DNA of 64,000 nt from Halorubrum lacusprofundi ATCC 49239 (lineage in GTDB: Archaea; Halobacteriota; Halobacteria; Halobacteriales; Haloferacaceae), in NCBI RefSeq assembly GCF_000022205.1, contig NC_012029.1, positions 2,480,001 to 2,544,000 on the forward strand. Direction: 5' to 3'. This document shows, piece by piece, positions 339 through 34,998 of this stretch (the stretch's first letter is position 1; each line of letters begins with the position of its first letter). The notes under the pieces were generated by a model. It had not been told where the DNA came from, searched no databases, and saw nothing but the letters and a program-made list of their open reading frames with translations. A program made the translations under genes and the position numbers.

Positions 339-526
339 TGGCCGTCGCTCAACCTCTCGTTTAAATATGCTCTCGTCGCCACCGATCTGCAATACCCACT
401 CCCGTCATCGATCAGAGAACACGCTCGGTGGCCGACCGCTTCGAACGAGAATCCGCTCGAAGAATCGGATTCCAACGGCACTACCGAGCCGGAGCTAGCG
501 CCGAAACCGCCACACCCGGCGTGGGG

Positions 527-532
527 TATATA
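527..532 (+). promoter_or_regulatory. TATA box of the DUF460 gene
   Basis: TATATA sits 25-30 bp upstream of the GTG at 557. This spacing fits leaderless haloarchaeal transcription and decides the start codon of the downstream gene. Confidence 0.6.
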
Positions 533-556
533 CGCTCCAACGGCCTACGTGAATAC

Positions 557-2614
557 GTGACAACCCGGACCATCCGCGCCCGCGACCGGCCGGTGTTCGG
601 CGTCGACGTCCACAGCGGCGACGTCCGCGGCGACGACCCCTCCTACGCCCTCGTGATCTTGGATCCCGTCGACGACGACGATCCGGACGCGCCCGACACG
701 GACGAGCCGATGGCGCGGGTGACCCGCGACGTGGTGTCGTTCCGGAAGCTCTGCCGATTGATCGACGACCGCAAACCGCTGTACGTCGCCACCGACAACG
801 CCTACGAGCTGGCGGCGAACAAAAACGATCTCGTGGGCTTCCTCCGATCGCTTCCCGACGGCACGCGGCTGGTGCAGGTGACCGGCGCGGAGCGCCCGGA
901 GCCGCTCTCGCGGGTCGCCTCCAGACACGGGATCCCGTACGGGAAAGAGCCGATGAAGGAGGCTGAGGCGTCGGCCCGGCTCGCGGCCGCCAACGTCGGC
1001 CACGAGGTGACCGCCTTCACCGACGAGACGCAGGTGAAGGTGTCCCGCGGGCGCTCGACCGGGAAGGGCGGCTGGAGTCAGGACCGCTACACCCGGCGGA
1101 TCCACGGGAACGTCCGGAAGCGGACCCGACAGGTCCAGTCGAAGCTGAAGGAGGCGAACCTCGACTTCGAGCGCGACGTGACCGAGAAGTACGGCGGCTA
1201 CGCGAACGCGACGTTCGCGGTCGAAGCGCGCCCGGAGGACATCCCGGTGTCGAACTCGCGGGCGGGCGACGTGCGCGTCGAGGTCGAGCGCGAGCGCCGC
1301 GACGGGATCGAGTACGAGCCGCTCGTGAAGCGACGCGACCGGGTGATCGTCGGGATCGATCCGGGGACGACCACCGCGGCCGCCGTGGTCGGGCTCGACG
1401 GCACCGTCCACGCCCTCTACTCTTCGCGAACGTCCGACACGGCCGACGTGACGGAGTGGATCATCGAGCAGGGCCGCCCGATCATCGTCGCCGCCGACGT
1501 GGAGCCGATGCCGGAGACCGTCGAGAAGTTCCGGCGTTCGTTCGACGCCGCGGGCTGGCGACCGACCACGGACCTGCCCGTCGACGAGAAACTCCATCGG
1601 ACCCGCGAGACCAACTACGACAACGATCACGAGCGCGACGCGCTGGCGGCCGCGCTGTACGCCTACGACGACCACGAGGACCAGTTCGAGCGCATCGCGG
1701 CGAAGACCCCGCCTCGGCTCGACCGCGAGGCGGTGATCGCGGGCGTCGTCGCGGGCGGGTCATCCGTCGAGGCCGTCATCGAGGGGCTGAGCGAGGACGA
1801 CGGGAGCGGCGGTGGTGACGGGGGTGGCGACGGCGGCGCGGAGGAGACGGACCCCACCGAGCCCGAGCGCACCGAAGAGGAGGAGACGATCCGGCGGCTC
1901 CGCGAGCGCGTCGGCCGGCTGGAGTCGCACGCGGAGTCGCTGGAAGCGGACCTCACAGAGCGCGACGAGCGGATCGCGGAGCTAGAGGGCGAACTGGAGG
2001 AGGCGAGGCGGGAAGAGCGGATCGAGGCGCGGAGCCGGCGGGCGGTGTCGCGGCTCGAACGCGAGACGGACCGGCTGCAGCGCGAGCGCGACGAGGCCAG
2101 AGAGCGGGCGGACGAATTAGAGGGGAAAGTGGAGACGCTGAAAGAGCTGTGGCGGCTCGATCACTCCAACTTCGGGGACGTGGCCGCGGATCAGGGGCTC
2201 GCGAGCGTGAAAGTCGTCGAGCAGTTCACGCTCGACGCGCTGGAGGCCGCAGATGAAGCGTATGGCCTCGTCGCCGGCGACGTGGTGTACCTTCGGGACG
2301 CTTCCGGAGCGGGACGGCGGACCGCAGAGCGACTGGCGGAGACGGAACCGCGGGCAGTGATCCGCGACGGGAACCTCTCGGAGGTGGCCGACCAGGTGCT
2401 CTTCGACCACAACGTGCCGGTCCTCCCGGCCGACGCGGTCCCGGTGCGCGAGGTCGACGAACTGGCGGTTGCGAGCGAGGAGGCCGTGGCGGCCGCCGTC
2501 GACGACTGGGAGCGACGAGCCGAACGCCGGCGAAAGGACGAGAAACAGGAGCACCTCGACCGGATCATCTCGGAGCATCGAGCGGGGCGGACGCTACCGG
2601 AGACCGAAGAGTAG
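557..2614 (+). CDS. DUF460-family protein with RNase H-like halves and a coiled coil
   Basis: The protein has 685 residues. It resembles the archaeal DUF460 family, whose function is unknown. The N-terminal part holds FGVDVHSGD near residue 14, and a second actin/RNase H-like motif, GIDPGTTTAAA, lies near residues 265-275. A Gly/Asp-rich hinge follows, then a long charged coiled coil (about 440-530, heptads rich in Glu and Arg) and a compact C-terminal domain. The frame is open further upstream, but GTG 557 is preferred because a TATA box lies 25-30 bp before it. The paired RNase H-like folds suggest binding or cutting of nucleic acid; that is inference, and no catalytic set can be assigned with certainty. 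tyrS follows on the same strand after 100 bp. Confidence 0.75.
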   Translation: MTTRTIRARDRPVFGVDVHSGDVRGDDPSYALVILDPVDDDDPDAPDTDEPMARVTRDVVSFRKLCRLIDDRKPLYVATDNAYELAANKNDLVGFLRSLPDGTRLVQVTGAERPEPLSRVASRHGIPYGKEPMKEAEASARLAAANVGHEVTAFTDETQVKVSRGRSTGKGGWSQDRYTRRIHGNVRKRTRQVQSKLKEANLDFERDVTEKYGGYANATFAVEARPEDIPVSNSRAGDVRVEVERERRDGIEYEPLVKRRDRVIVGIDPGTTTAAAVVGLDGTVHALYSSRTSDTADVTEWIIEQGRPIIVAADVEPMPETVEKFRRSFDAAGWRPTTDLPVDEKLHRTRETNYDNDHERDALAAALYAYDDHEDQFERIAAKTPPRLDREAVIAGVVAGGSSVEAVIEGLSEDDGSGGGDGGGDGGAEETDPTEPERTEEEETIRRLRERVGRLESHAESLEADLTERDERIAELEGELEEARREERIEARSRRAVSRLERETDRLQRERDEARERADELEGKVETLKELWRLDHSNFGDVAADQGLASVKVVEQFTLDALEAADEAYGLVAGDVVYLRDASGAGRRTAERLAETEPRAVIRDGNLSEVADQVLFDHNVPVLPADAVPVREVDELAVASEEAVAAAVDDWERRAERRRKDEKQEHLDRIISEHRAGRTLPETEE

Positions 2615-4630: not shown

Positions 4631-5980
4631 ATGAGCGAGAACTCCGGTTCGGCTCCGTCGAGAACAACGGACTCAGCGTCTCCCGTTCGAGTCGGGGTAT
4701 TGAGTTTTCACAACAGCAAAGAGACCAAAGCGATCCTCAACGCCGTTCACGCGCTGGGGCACGAGCCGGTCTGGCTCCGCGAGGAAAACGCCCGGTCCTG
4801 GATCGAAGCCGGGAATCTCCGTTTCGACCCCGACGTAGAGGTCGTCTCGAACCGGCTGCTGACGACGAAGGCCGCACAGCCGCTCGACGACCTCGGAATC
4901 GCGACGAGTTACGCCGCTTCGTGTCCCGTGTTGAACCCGCCGGCCGTCGTCGTCCAGGCCATGCACAAGTACGGCGCCGCGGCGACCCTCACTGCGGCCG
5001 GGATCCCGGTTCCGGACGCCTACATGGCGTTCACGCACCGAACGATCAACGAGGGCAACCGACTGACGAGTGAGAAAGCGGTCCACAAGTCCGCGATCGG
5101 GACGAACGGGGCTCGGATGTCGATCGTCGGTGCGGACGACACCGTCTCTCCGCATATCGCCCACCGACGAGCGTTCTTACAGGAGTTCATCGACACCGGC
5201 ACGGAGCGACCGTTCGACGTCCGGGCGTACGTCGTCGACGACCGTATCGTCGGCGCGATGAAACGGTACGCGCCGCCGGACGAGTGGCGTACGAACGTCG
5301 CCGTCGGCGCCGAAGTCGAGGATTTCACCGCCGACCTCCCCGAGGAGGCGGCGCGGCTCTCGCGGGAGGCGGCCGACGTGCTCGATCTCGATTACGCCGG
5401 CGTGGACCTGTTGTGTCGTGACGGCGCGTGGTACGTTCTCGAAGTGAACGCGACGGCGGGATTCAAAGGACTCTTCGAGGCGACGGGGACCAGCCCCGCG
5501 CCGTTCATCGCCGGCCTCGCGATCGAGAGGGGCGGCGGCCGGGTCGACCTCGATCGCGTCACCGACCTCGCGGCGGAACTGGACGACTCGACCCCGGAGT
5601 GTAAGCCGTCGATCGACCCGGAGCCGACGGAGTCGGCGGCGATCGGCTACACCGAGCGCGTGACGGTGGGCGCCGGCGGACGAACGATCGACGCGATCGC
5701 CAAATCGGACACCGGCGCCCGGCGGACGAGCATCGACCTCGACGTCGCCGCGGATATCGGCGCCGGTCCGATCGTCGGTACGGTCCACGTGAAATCAGGA
5801 TCGCAAACCGGGCGGCAGAAGCGCCCGCTCGTCGAGATCGACGTCAAAATCGGCGACCGCTGGCAGACCGTAACCGCGAGCATCGAGAACCGGAACCACA
5901 TGGCCTACCCCATACTGCTTGGTCGGGACATTCTCGACGGCTACCGCGTGGACGTCACGAAACGGCAACGCGGGGAGTGA
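4631..5980 (+). CDS. RimK-type ATP-grasp ligase fused to a RimB-like retropepsin protease domain
   Basis: The protein has 449 residues. Residues 15-320 form an ATP-grasp ligase of the RimK/LysX group (Mg-ATP loops and LEVNATAGFKG in the catalytic core), a family that adds glutamate or similar amino acids to proteins or cofactors. Residues 335-445 match the RimB/DUF785 aspartic-protease-like domain: the DTGA flap-side motif is at 360-363 and LLGRD at 429-433. In E. coli rimK and rimB are separate neighbouring genes whose products add and trim glutamates on ribosomal protein S6; here both activities may sit in one chain. The target in this organism is unknown. It is convergent with the next gene, with one base between the stops. 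Confidence 0.85.
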   Translation: MSENSGSAPSRTTDSASPVRVGVLSFHNSKETKAILNAVHALGHEPVWLREENARSWIEAGNLRFDPDVEVVSNRLLTTKAAQPLDDLGIATSYAASCPVLNPPAVVVQAMHKYGAAATLTAAGIPVPDAYMAFTHRTINEGNRLTSEKAVHKSAIGTNGARMSIVGADDTVSPHIAHRRAFLQEFIDTGTERPFDVRAYVVDDRIVGAMKRYAPPDEWRTNVAVGAEVEDFTADLPEEAARLSREAADVLDLDYAGVDLLCRDGAWYVLEVNATAGFKGLFEATGTSPAPFIAGLAIERGGGRVDLDRVTDLAAELDDSTPECKPSIDPEPTESAAIGYTERVTVGAGGRTIDAIAKSDTGARRTSIDLDVAADIGAGPIVGTVHVKSGSQTGRQKRPLVEIDVKIGDRWQTVTASIENRNHMAYPILLGRDILDGYRVDVTKRQRGE

Positions 5981-33409: not shown

Positions 33410-33465
33410 GTCCGGATGTGGCGGCCGGCAGGCTCTTAACCGTCTCGGGAAGTCGCGGGGGTGAC

Positions 33466-33620
33466 ATCCTCCCCGGCGTAAACGCCGGGGCTTCCCGTAC
33501 CGCAGGTGGGATATTTGCTGGTTTACGATACAACCTGTTCTCTCGGGCGAACCGTCCCGCTCTCGCGGTCGAACAGGTGTACCGATGGCTGTGCCACACA
33601 GCCGTTACTCCTATCCTCTC
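33466..33620 (-). ncRNA. Candidate omega/reRNA at the right end of the IS element
   Basis: In IS1341-type elements of haloarchaea, sense overlapping transcripts from the 3' end of tnpB through the right-end hairpin are known and correspond to the TnpB guide RNA. Here the hairpin at 33471-33490 lies 32 bp past the tnpB stop. The guide would be read into the flank at about 33445-33465 on the minus strand. Transcript limits are inference. Confidence 0.4.
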
Positions 33621-34773: not shown

Positions 34774-34998
34774 ATATAGCCTATGTAGATTAATTGAGTT
34801 AATAGTTCGGAATAGCGTTGAATATCCGTCCATAGCGTCGTTGGCGGATCGTTTGGGGTTGTCGGATTCACTCTCGCCGTAAACGGCGGGATTCTCTCCT
34901 CGGGGAAAGATAGCCGACGGAGTACGACAATCGTCGTCACCGTTCGTCGTCACGGACCGATAGAATGAGGTGGGTTATGGTGGAAGGAACGTGCAGGA

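Follow-up and report, generated by a model that had tools for sequence, protein, structure and literature searches.

The genome of Halorubrum lacusprofundi ATCC 49239 encodes a single chain in which a RimK-type ATP-grasp ligase is followed, in the same frame, by a RimB/RloA-type retropepsin. The gene is located at positions 4631-5980 (+) of the window, by which is meant the whole stretch of 64,000 nucleotides analysed (NC_012029.1, positions 2,480,001 to 2,544,000), and it is one intact open reading frame of 449 codons plus stop with an ATG start. At a probability of roughly 0.6, the fusion would function as a one-chain maker and trimmer of C-terminal alpha-linked polyglutamate tails, and the C-terminal glutamate conserved in its family points to the enzyme itself as the leading specific candidate acceptor (self-glutamylation). 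An earlier note on this DNA had proposed a RimK-RimB fusion in an archaeon; the coordinates and the DTGA and LLGRD motifs it gave are exact, and the fusion is borne out by Pfam, by the predicted fold and by orthologues.

Domain architecture and predicted fold

The ligase half opens with a pre-ATP-grasp part at approximately residues 20-114 (4688-4972, +), seen as a conserved alignment block and lying largely within a TIGR00768 match to residues 23-288; its boundary is an estimate. The RimK ATP-grasp domain occupies residues 115-287 (4973-5491, +), where PF08443 was matched at 72.6 bits against a gathering score of 21 (E 4.3e-20). An interdomain linker at approximately residues 301-337 (5531-5641, +) is variable in the alignment and of low confidence in the model at residues 327-337. 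The RimB/RloA-type retropepsin domain spans approximately residues 338-441 (5642-5953, +) and contains the catalytic DTGA motif at residues 360-363 (5708-5719, +), with Asp360, and the LLGRD motif at residues 429-433 (5915-5929, +). The chain closes with the tail VTKRQRGE (5954-5977, +), which carries a single terminal Glu at the site of the acceptor-like Glu-Glu found family-wide. PF05618 (Zn_protease/RimB) was matched at residues 381-445 with 36.8 bits against a gathering score of 27 (E 4.5e-9); this match covers profile positions 67-132 only, that is, the C-terminal half, and to that extent counts against the preferred reading. Weaker Pfam matches to gag-type aspartic proteases fell at residues 349-435.

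With the NCBIfam models, the ligase half was placed within the RimK superfamily below every cut-off, including those of the RimK family (125 bits against 143), MptN (112.2 against 350), LysX (83.9 against 275.6), CofF (48.3 against 300), and the S6--glutamate ligase RimK equivalog PRK10446.1 (45.1 against 331). The protease half was nearest to RloA3 (36.4 bits against 210), followed by RloA2 (28.9 against 250) and RloA1 (17.2 against 280), each again below its cut-off.

An alignment of 85 fused proteins revealed K153, D196, R198, R212, R220, and N222 in all 85, and D259, E271, and N273 in 84, the remaining protein having a gap; these are candidate catalytic residues of the RimK half. Within the protease half, the retropepsin Asp, D360, is present in 83/85 proteins, while G431, R432, and D433 are invariant (85/85). 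The residue two positions before the catalytic Asp is Lys (K358) in 80/85 and Arg in the remaining five. It corresponds to K46 preceding D48 in RloA, for which a contact with polyglutamate is predicted by modelling in the available portion of PMC12239564.

AlphaFold2 models, computed from nine sequences each and in both cases with a single one of the five standing clearly above the rest, had a mean pLDDT of 72.7 both for the whole chain and for residues 332-449. A Foldseek search with the whole-chain model returned the RimK structure 4iwx as the top match (E 2.7e-17). With the model of residues 332-449, retropepsins ranked first, the matches comprising the Legionella DUF785 protein 2pma, the retroviral-protease domains of Ddi1, RloA (9g58), RloA2 (9g59), and HIV protease (all E<=1e-3), and a sequence profile of the C-terminal part matched 2pma, 9g59, and 9g58 among PDB profiles. 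The flap region of the retropepsin half was poorly modelled, which counts against the preferred reading. The earlier note had named a C-terminal domain of some other fold as an outcome that would overturn it; the fold search ruled this out, and the protein possesses both marks of the RimB/RloA group, the motif D360-T-G-A and the retropepsin fold.

Distribution, known relatives and second copies

The nearest homologues, at 79-84% identity, occur in Halorubrum kocurii, H. aidingense, H. coriense, and Halorubrum spp. Atlit-26R and Hd13. In all five genomes the fusion gene lies between the same neighbours: a DUF460 protein, a class I (W/Y-type) tRNA synthetase, and a NucS_N protein on one side, and MCM and a helicase, presumably of the Hel308 type, on the other. 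The reading frame of the Hd13 copy is split. At E<=1e-30 the window protein was matched in 70/76 sampled haloarchaeal genomes, where the top hit always covered both domains, and a PF05618 match was found in 269/292 genomes of the class. Given this class-wide presence, the fusion is old and has been kept in the haloarchaea. Orthologues in the same gene order together with class-wide presence rule out a chance or frameshift fusion, and full-length fused homologues in other Halorubrum and across the sampled genomes exclude the sequencing artefact that had been raised as a possible undoing of the proposal. Annotations on haloarchaeal plasmids read 'RimK/LysX family protein', 'RimK family alpha-L-glutamate ligase', or 'ATP-grasp domain-containing protein', names that conceal the protease half.

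A single-chain RimK/RimB hybrid as such is already known from bacteria. RimBK of Desulfotalea psychrophila (DP2392), with RimB at the N-terminus (residues 1-163), has been published, and the survey in that paper, which drew on bacterial accessions only, places the hybrid largely in two bacterial orders (PMC11957791). The haloarchaeal protein likewise unites ligase and retropepsin; however, its domain order is reversed (K-B versus B-K), with RimB last rather than first, and its distribution is class-wide. Two fusions of opposite domain order, one in bacteria and one in haloarchaea, argue that ligase and protease work as one unit and are not merely opposed. A search of mostly open-access literature, preprints and most subscription papers lying outside it, did not turn up an archaeal RimK-RimB fusion, nor did the accessible part of a survey of archaeal fusions (PMC11237513) contain one. 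The K-B order, the spread through the haloarchaeal class, and the conserved Glu end thus appear to be new, being absent from the literature searched. Such fusions may be covered in the 2009 amidoligase survey of Iyer and colleagues.

Archaeal MptN, CofF, and LysX share the RimK-like ATP-grasp fold; their equivalog cut-offs are missed by the fusion, and they are not known to possess a protease domain. The earlier note was mistaken in describing RimK and RimB as separate proteins of E. coli: by the text available of PMC11957791, E. coli has rimK and lacks rimB, and it was in Pseudomonas that the pair was characterised, with RpsF as target. There, RimB strips polyglutamate from RpsF and stimulates RimK (PMC11957791), trimming towards four residues according to the accessible part of PMC7343187. 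In both domain families and in active-site motifs the Pseudomonas proteins agree with the fusion, but they are encoded by separate genes and serve RpsF. RloA, RloA2, and RloA3 (9g58, 9g59) belong to the same retropepsin family and share the Lys-x-Asp-Thr-Gly-Ala motif, and RloA is described as cutting polyglutamate in the available portion of PMC12239564; these proteins differ in being secreted, in having no ligase fused to them, and in that the fusion falls short of their equivalog cut-offs.

Besides a large canonical clade (31 rows), a tree of 52 fused proteins contained several groups of second copies. The clade of the window protein is one of the latter and has eight rows, comprising six Halorubrum rows, Halorubrum sp. 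CBA1125, and a plasmid of the haloarchaeon XH8 (support 100/99). The canonical copy, 53% identical to the window protein, is found elsewhere in the same genome (G000:C2:1971633-1972871). An insert of ~500 bp whose ends are palindromic interrupts it after RGHMDY, close to the C-terminus (G000:C2:1971631-1973440, or L037:5631-7440), the missing C-terminal codons lying past the insert. Sequence from the insert, for the most part from its ends, is matched 28 times in the genome, the insert itself being counted, and we take the palindromes to be of the IS200/IS605 kind; the insert is therefore probably a non-autonomous mobile element. Because the canonical copy is broken, the window copy may be the only intact one in this strain. 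Within the window, 33459-33511 and 34865-34898 match the two ends of the insert and lie ~1.4 kb apart, which suggests that this IS family has an element there too.

Four second copies from other haloarchaea (L117, L118, L120, and L121) have a degenerated DTG motif (EPV, DPT, NPA, DTT) and retain the RimK half; judged by their motifs, they are possible pseudoproteases. That some second copies keep RimK without the protease motif makes the two activities separable, which counts against the preferred reading. Terminal Glu is absent from 2/4 of these copies versus 3/80 of the others (Fisher p 0.016, with DSG counted as intact), a weak sign, the four including close relatives, that copies whose protease motif is lost also tend to lose terminal Glu. 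A RimK-only relative of 330 aa (L122; G054:C4:10580-11491) is 38% identical to the ligase half of the window protein and has no protease half, and a close relative on the XH8 plasmid (L098, 6947-8827) is truncated at residue 419-420 and reads on into an unrelated open reading frame.

The C-terminal glutamate tail

The last motif of the fused proteins is YxVDV, and the 2-23 residues that follow it form a tail that is freely variable among them. Of 86 tails distinct by their last 60 residues, the broken canonical copy and the truncated XH8 plasmid copy were set aside, leaving 84 full-length proteins, a set to which the window protein does not belong. Terminal Glu was found in 79/84 and Glu-Glu in 70/84; counted by position from the end, Glu occupies -1 in 79, -2 in 72, and -3 in 24. 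Shuffling within tails gave an expectation of 25 Glu and 6.9 Glu-Glu ends, and 0/5000 shuffles reached the observed values. When one representative was taken from each of 35 tail clusters, a step that lessens relatedness but corrects for it only partly, 32 ended in Glu and 28 in Glu-Glu versus 9.8 and 2.7 expected (0/20000 shuffles).

As background, 385 haloarchaeal open reading frames of the same loci, called by a rough rule, ended in Glu in 71 cases and in Glu-Glu in eight; among the 52 background proteins with acidic ends, the corresponding numbers were 21 and four. Terminal Glu was found in none of the separate proteins inspected, namely ten methanogen RimK, three RimB, and two Vibrionaceae RimK and RimB. 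Orthologues of AstE, one cut row left out, ended in Glu in 6/29 and in Glu-Glu in 1/29. The window protein itself ends RQRGE, with a single Glu, which counts against the preferred reading; in the H. aidingense orthologue the end is EREA, and in some second copies the last residue is Ser, Lys, or Asp.

The only neighbour with a Glu-Glu end is the DUF460 protein (window 428-2614), which terminates in TLPETEE in six Halorubrum loci; six rows of its family head a longer, redundant list of open reading frame ends. It was considered as a substrate and not kept, its orthologues across the class ending in Glu in 3/30 and in Glu-Glu in 0/30.

Glu is the last residue of the RpsF proteins that RimK extends (...DNADE and ...GDSEE, as tabulated in PMC11957791). 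Since RimK extends proteins with such ends and the fused proteins end in Glu themselves, the enzyme looks like its own acceptor, and its conserved end provides a concrete candidate substrate.

Proposed mechanism, alternatives and partner genes

By analogy with its bacterial relatives, the RimK half would use ATP to activate the carboxyl end of an acceptor, to which glutamates would then be added. The RimB half would have to pair with that of a second chain, as in those relatives, because each chain supplies only one catalytic Asp. It may be expected to cut chains beyond about four to six glutamates, the range suggested by the available portions of PMC7343187 and PMC11957791, and together the two halves would keep tails at a set length. 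Coupled writing and trimming, as the earlier note proposed, stands as the natural reading because both active sites are intact. For the fused form it is a prediction, against which it counts that bacterial RimBK, the only hybrid tested, cut polyglutamate while glutamylation of RpsF was not seen (PMC11957791). No report of glutamylation or trimming chemistry, or of measured activity, in an archaeal member was found in the searched literature. More tentatively, the fusion could be a self-primed polyglutamate enzyme, its own Glu-Glu serving as acceptor for a chain that the retropepsin half, located only a few residues before it, would cut, thereby setting the length of the chain or releasing poly-alpha-glutamate, in the manner that glycogenin primes glycogen.

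The tail might have nothing to do with the enzyme chemistry, being a mere product of haloarchaeal acidity or a ribosome-binding site for the next gene. Haloarchaeal proteins are acidic, and GAGGAG resembles a Shine-Dalgarno motif; however, the excess of Glu lies at positions -1 and -2 and drops off at -3, Glu-Glu ends are some tenfold more frequent than the ~7 expected by shuffling and are found in just 4/52 of the acidic-ended background, an open reading frame starts on the same strand <=25 nt downstream in 8/84 only, and both GAA and GAG are used. On these grounds, the explanation was rejected and is considered very improbable. A different view, which is possible if on the doubtful side, holds that the enzyme acts on some abundant protein, ribosomal or otherwise, whose last residue is Glu, like RpsF in Pseudomonas, and that the tail of the enzyme is incidental or a docking mimic filling the idle protease or ligase site. 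Archaea are not known to have bacterial S6, no substrate of this kind was found here, and the Glu-Glu end of DUF460 is not kept across the class (0/30), all of which speaks against it. In its favour, the Glu end of RpsF is a substrate of both RimK and RimB in the available portions of PMC11957791 and PMC7343187, and a tail too short for cutting could still occupy a positively charged channel of the type described for RloA in the accessible part of PMC12239564; such docking is the main alternative to the self-acceptor role.

It appears unlikely that the ligase half glutamylates a small cofactor (F420, folate, or other), as do MptN and CofF of methanogens, with the retropepsin half cutting the peptide tail of that cofactor. 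MptN is indeed the second-best NCBIfam model (112 bits), and both RimK homologues of M. jannaschii serve coenzyme biosynthesis in the text available of PMC11957791. The scores, however, reach only 112 of 350 bits for MptN and 48 of 300 for CofF, and an enzyme of this kind should need neither a protease for runs of alpha-linked Glu nor a conserved Glu-Glu end of its own.

A third function may be associated with the preferred reading of a one-chain maker and trimmer of polyglutamate tails. A protein with an AstE/AspA-type catalytic domain (PF24827) is encoded directly divergent from the fusion in 25/52 loci and 2-5 kb away in five more, in a sample that was not unbiased, 40 of the loci having been chosen to include second copies. 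At 22/52 loci no AstE was found in the stretch examined; the window is among them, which counts against the preferred reading. The M14-like hydrolase beside many canonical copies would probably take as substrate either these same ends or glutamyl products once they are released. In Salinivibrio kushneri, adjacent genes encode an ATP-dependent zinc protease (RimB), an S6--glutamate ligase (RimK), and a succinylglutamate desuccinylase/aspartoacylase, the same three functions as the haloarchaeal fusion plus AstE. With class-wide retention and no known RimK target, the haloarchaea, some of which have working genetics, offer a place to learn the role of polyglutamylation beyond the bacterial ribosome.

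Separate genes were also observed side by side. In Vibrio campbellii, rimK is followed by rimB at a distance of ~57 bases, and a gene order of this kind could have been the source of the haloarchaeal fusion through loss of a stop. Separate and adjacent rimB and rimK occur in Methanosarcina-like genomes as well, a label that rests on the control genome of M. acetivorans. A second, divergent PF05618 class of ~180-200 aa, whose profile match starts at position 25, is encoded elsewhere in the phylum (e.g., in genomes L048, L050, L051, and L053) and is separate from the rimB adjacent to rimK.
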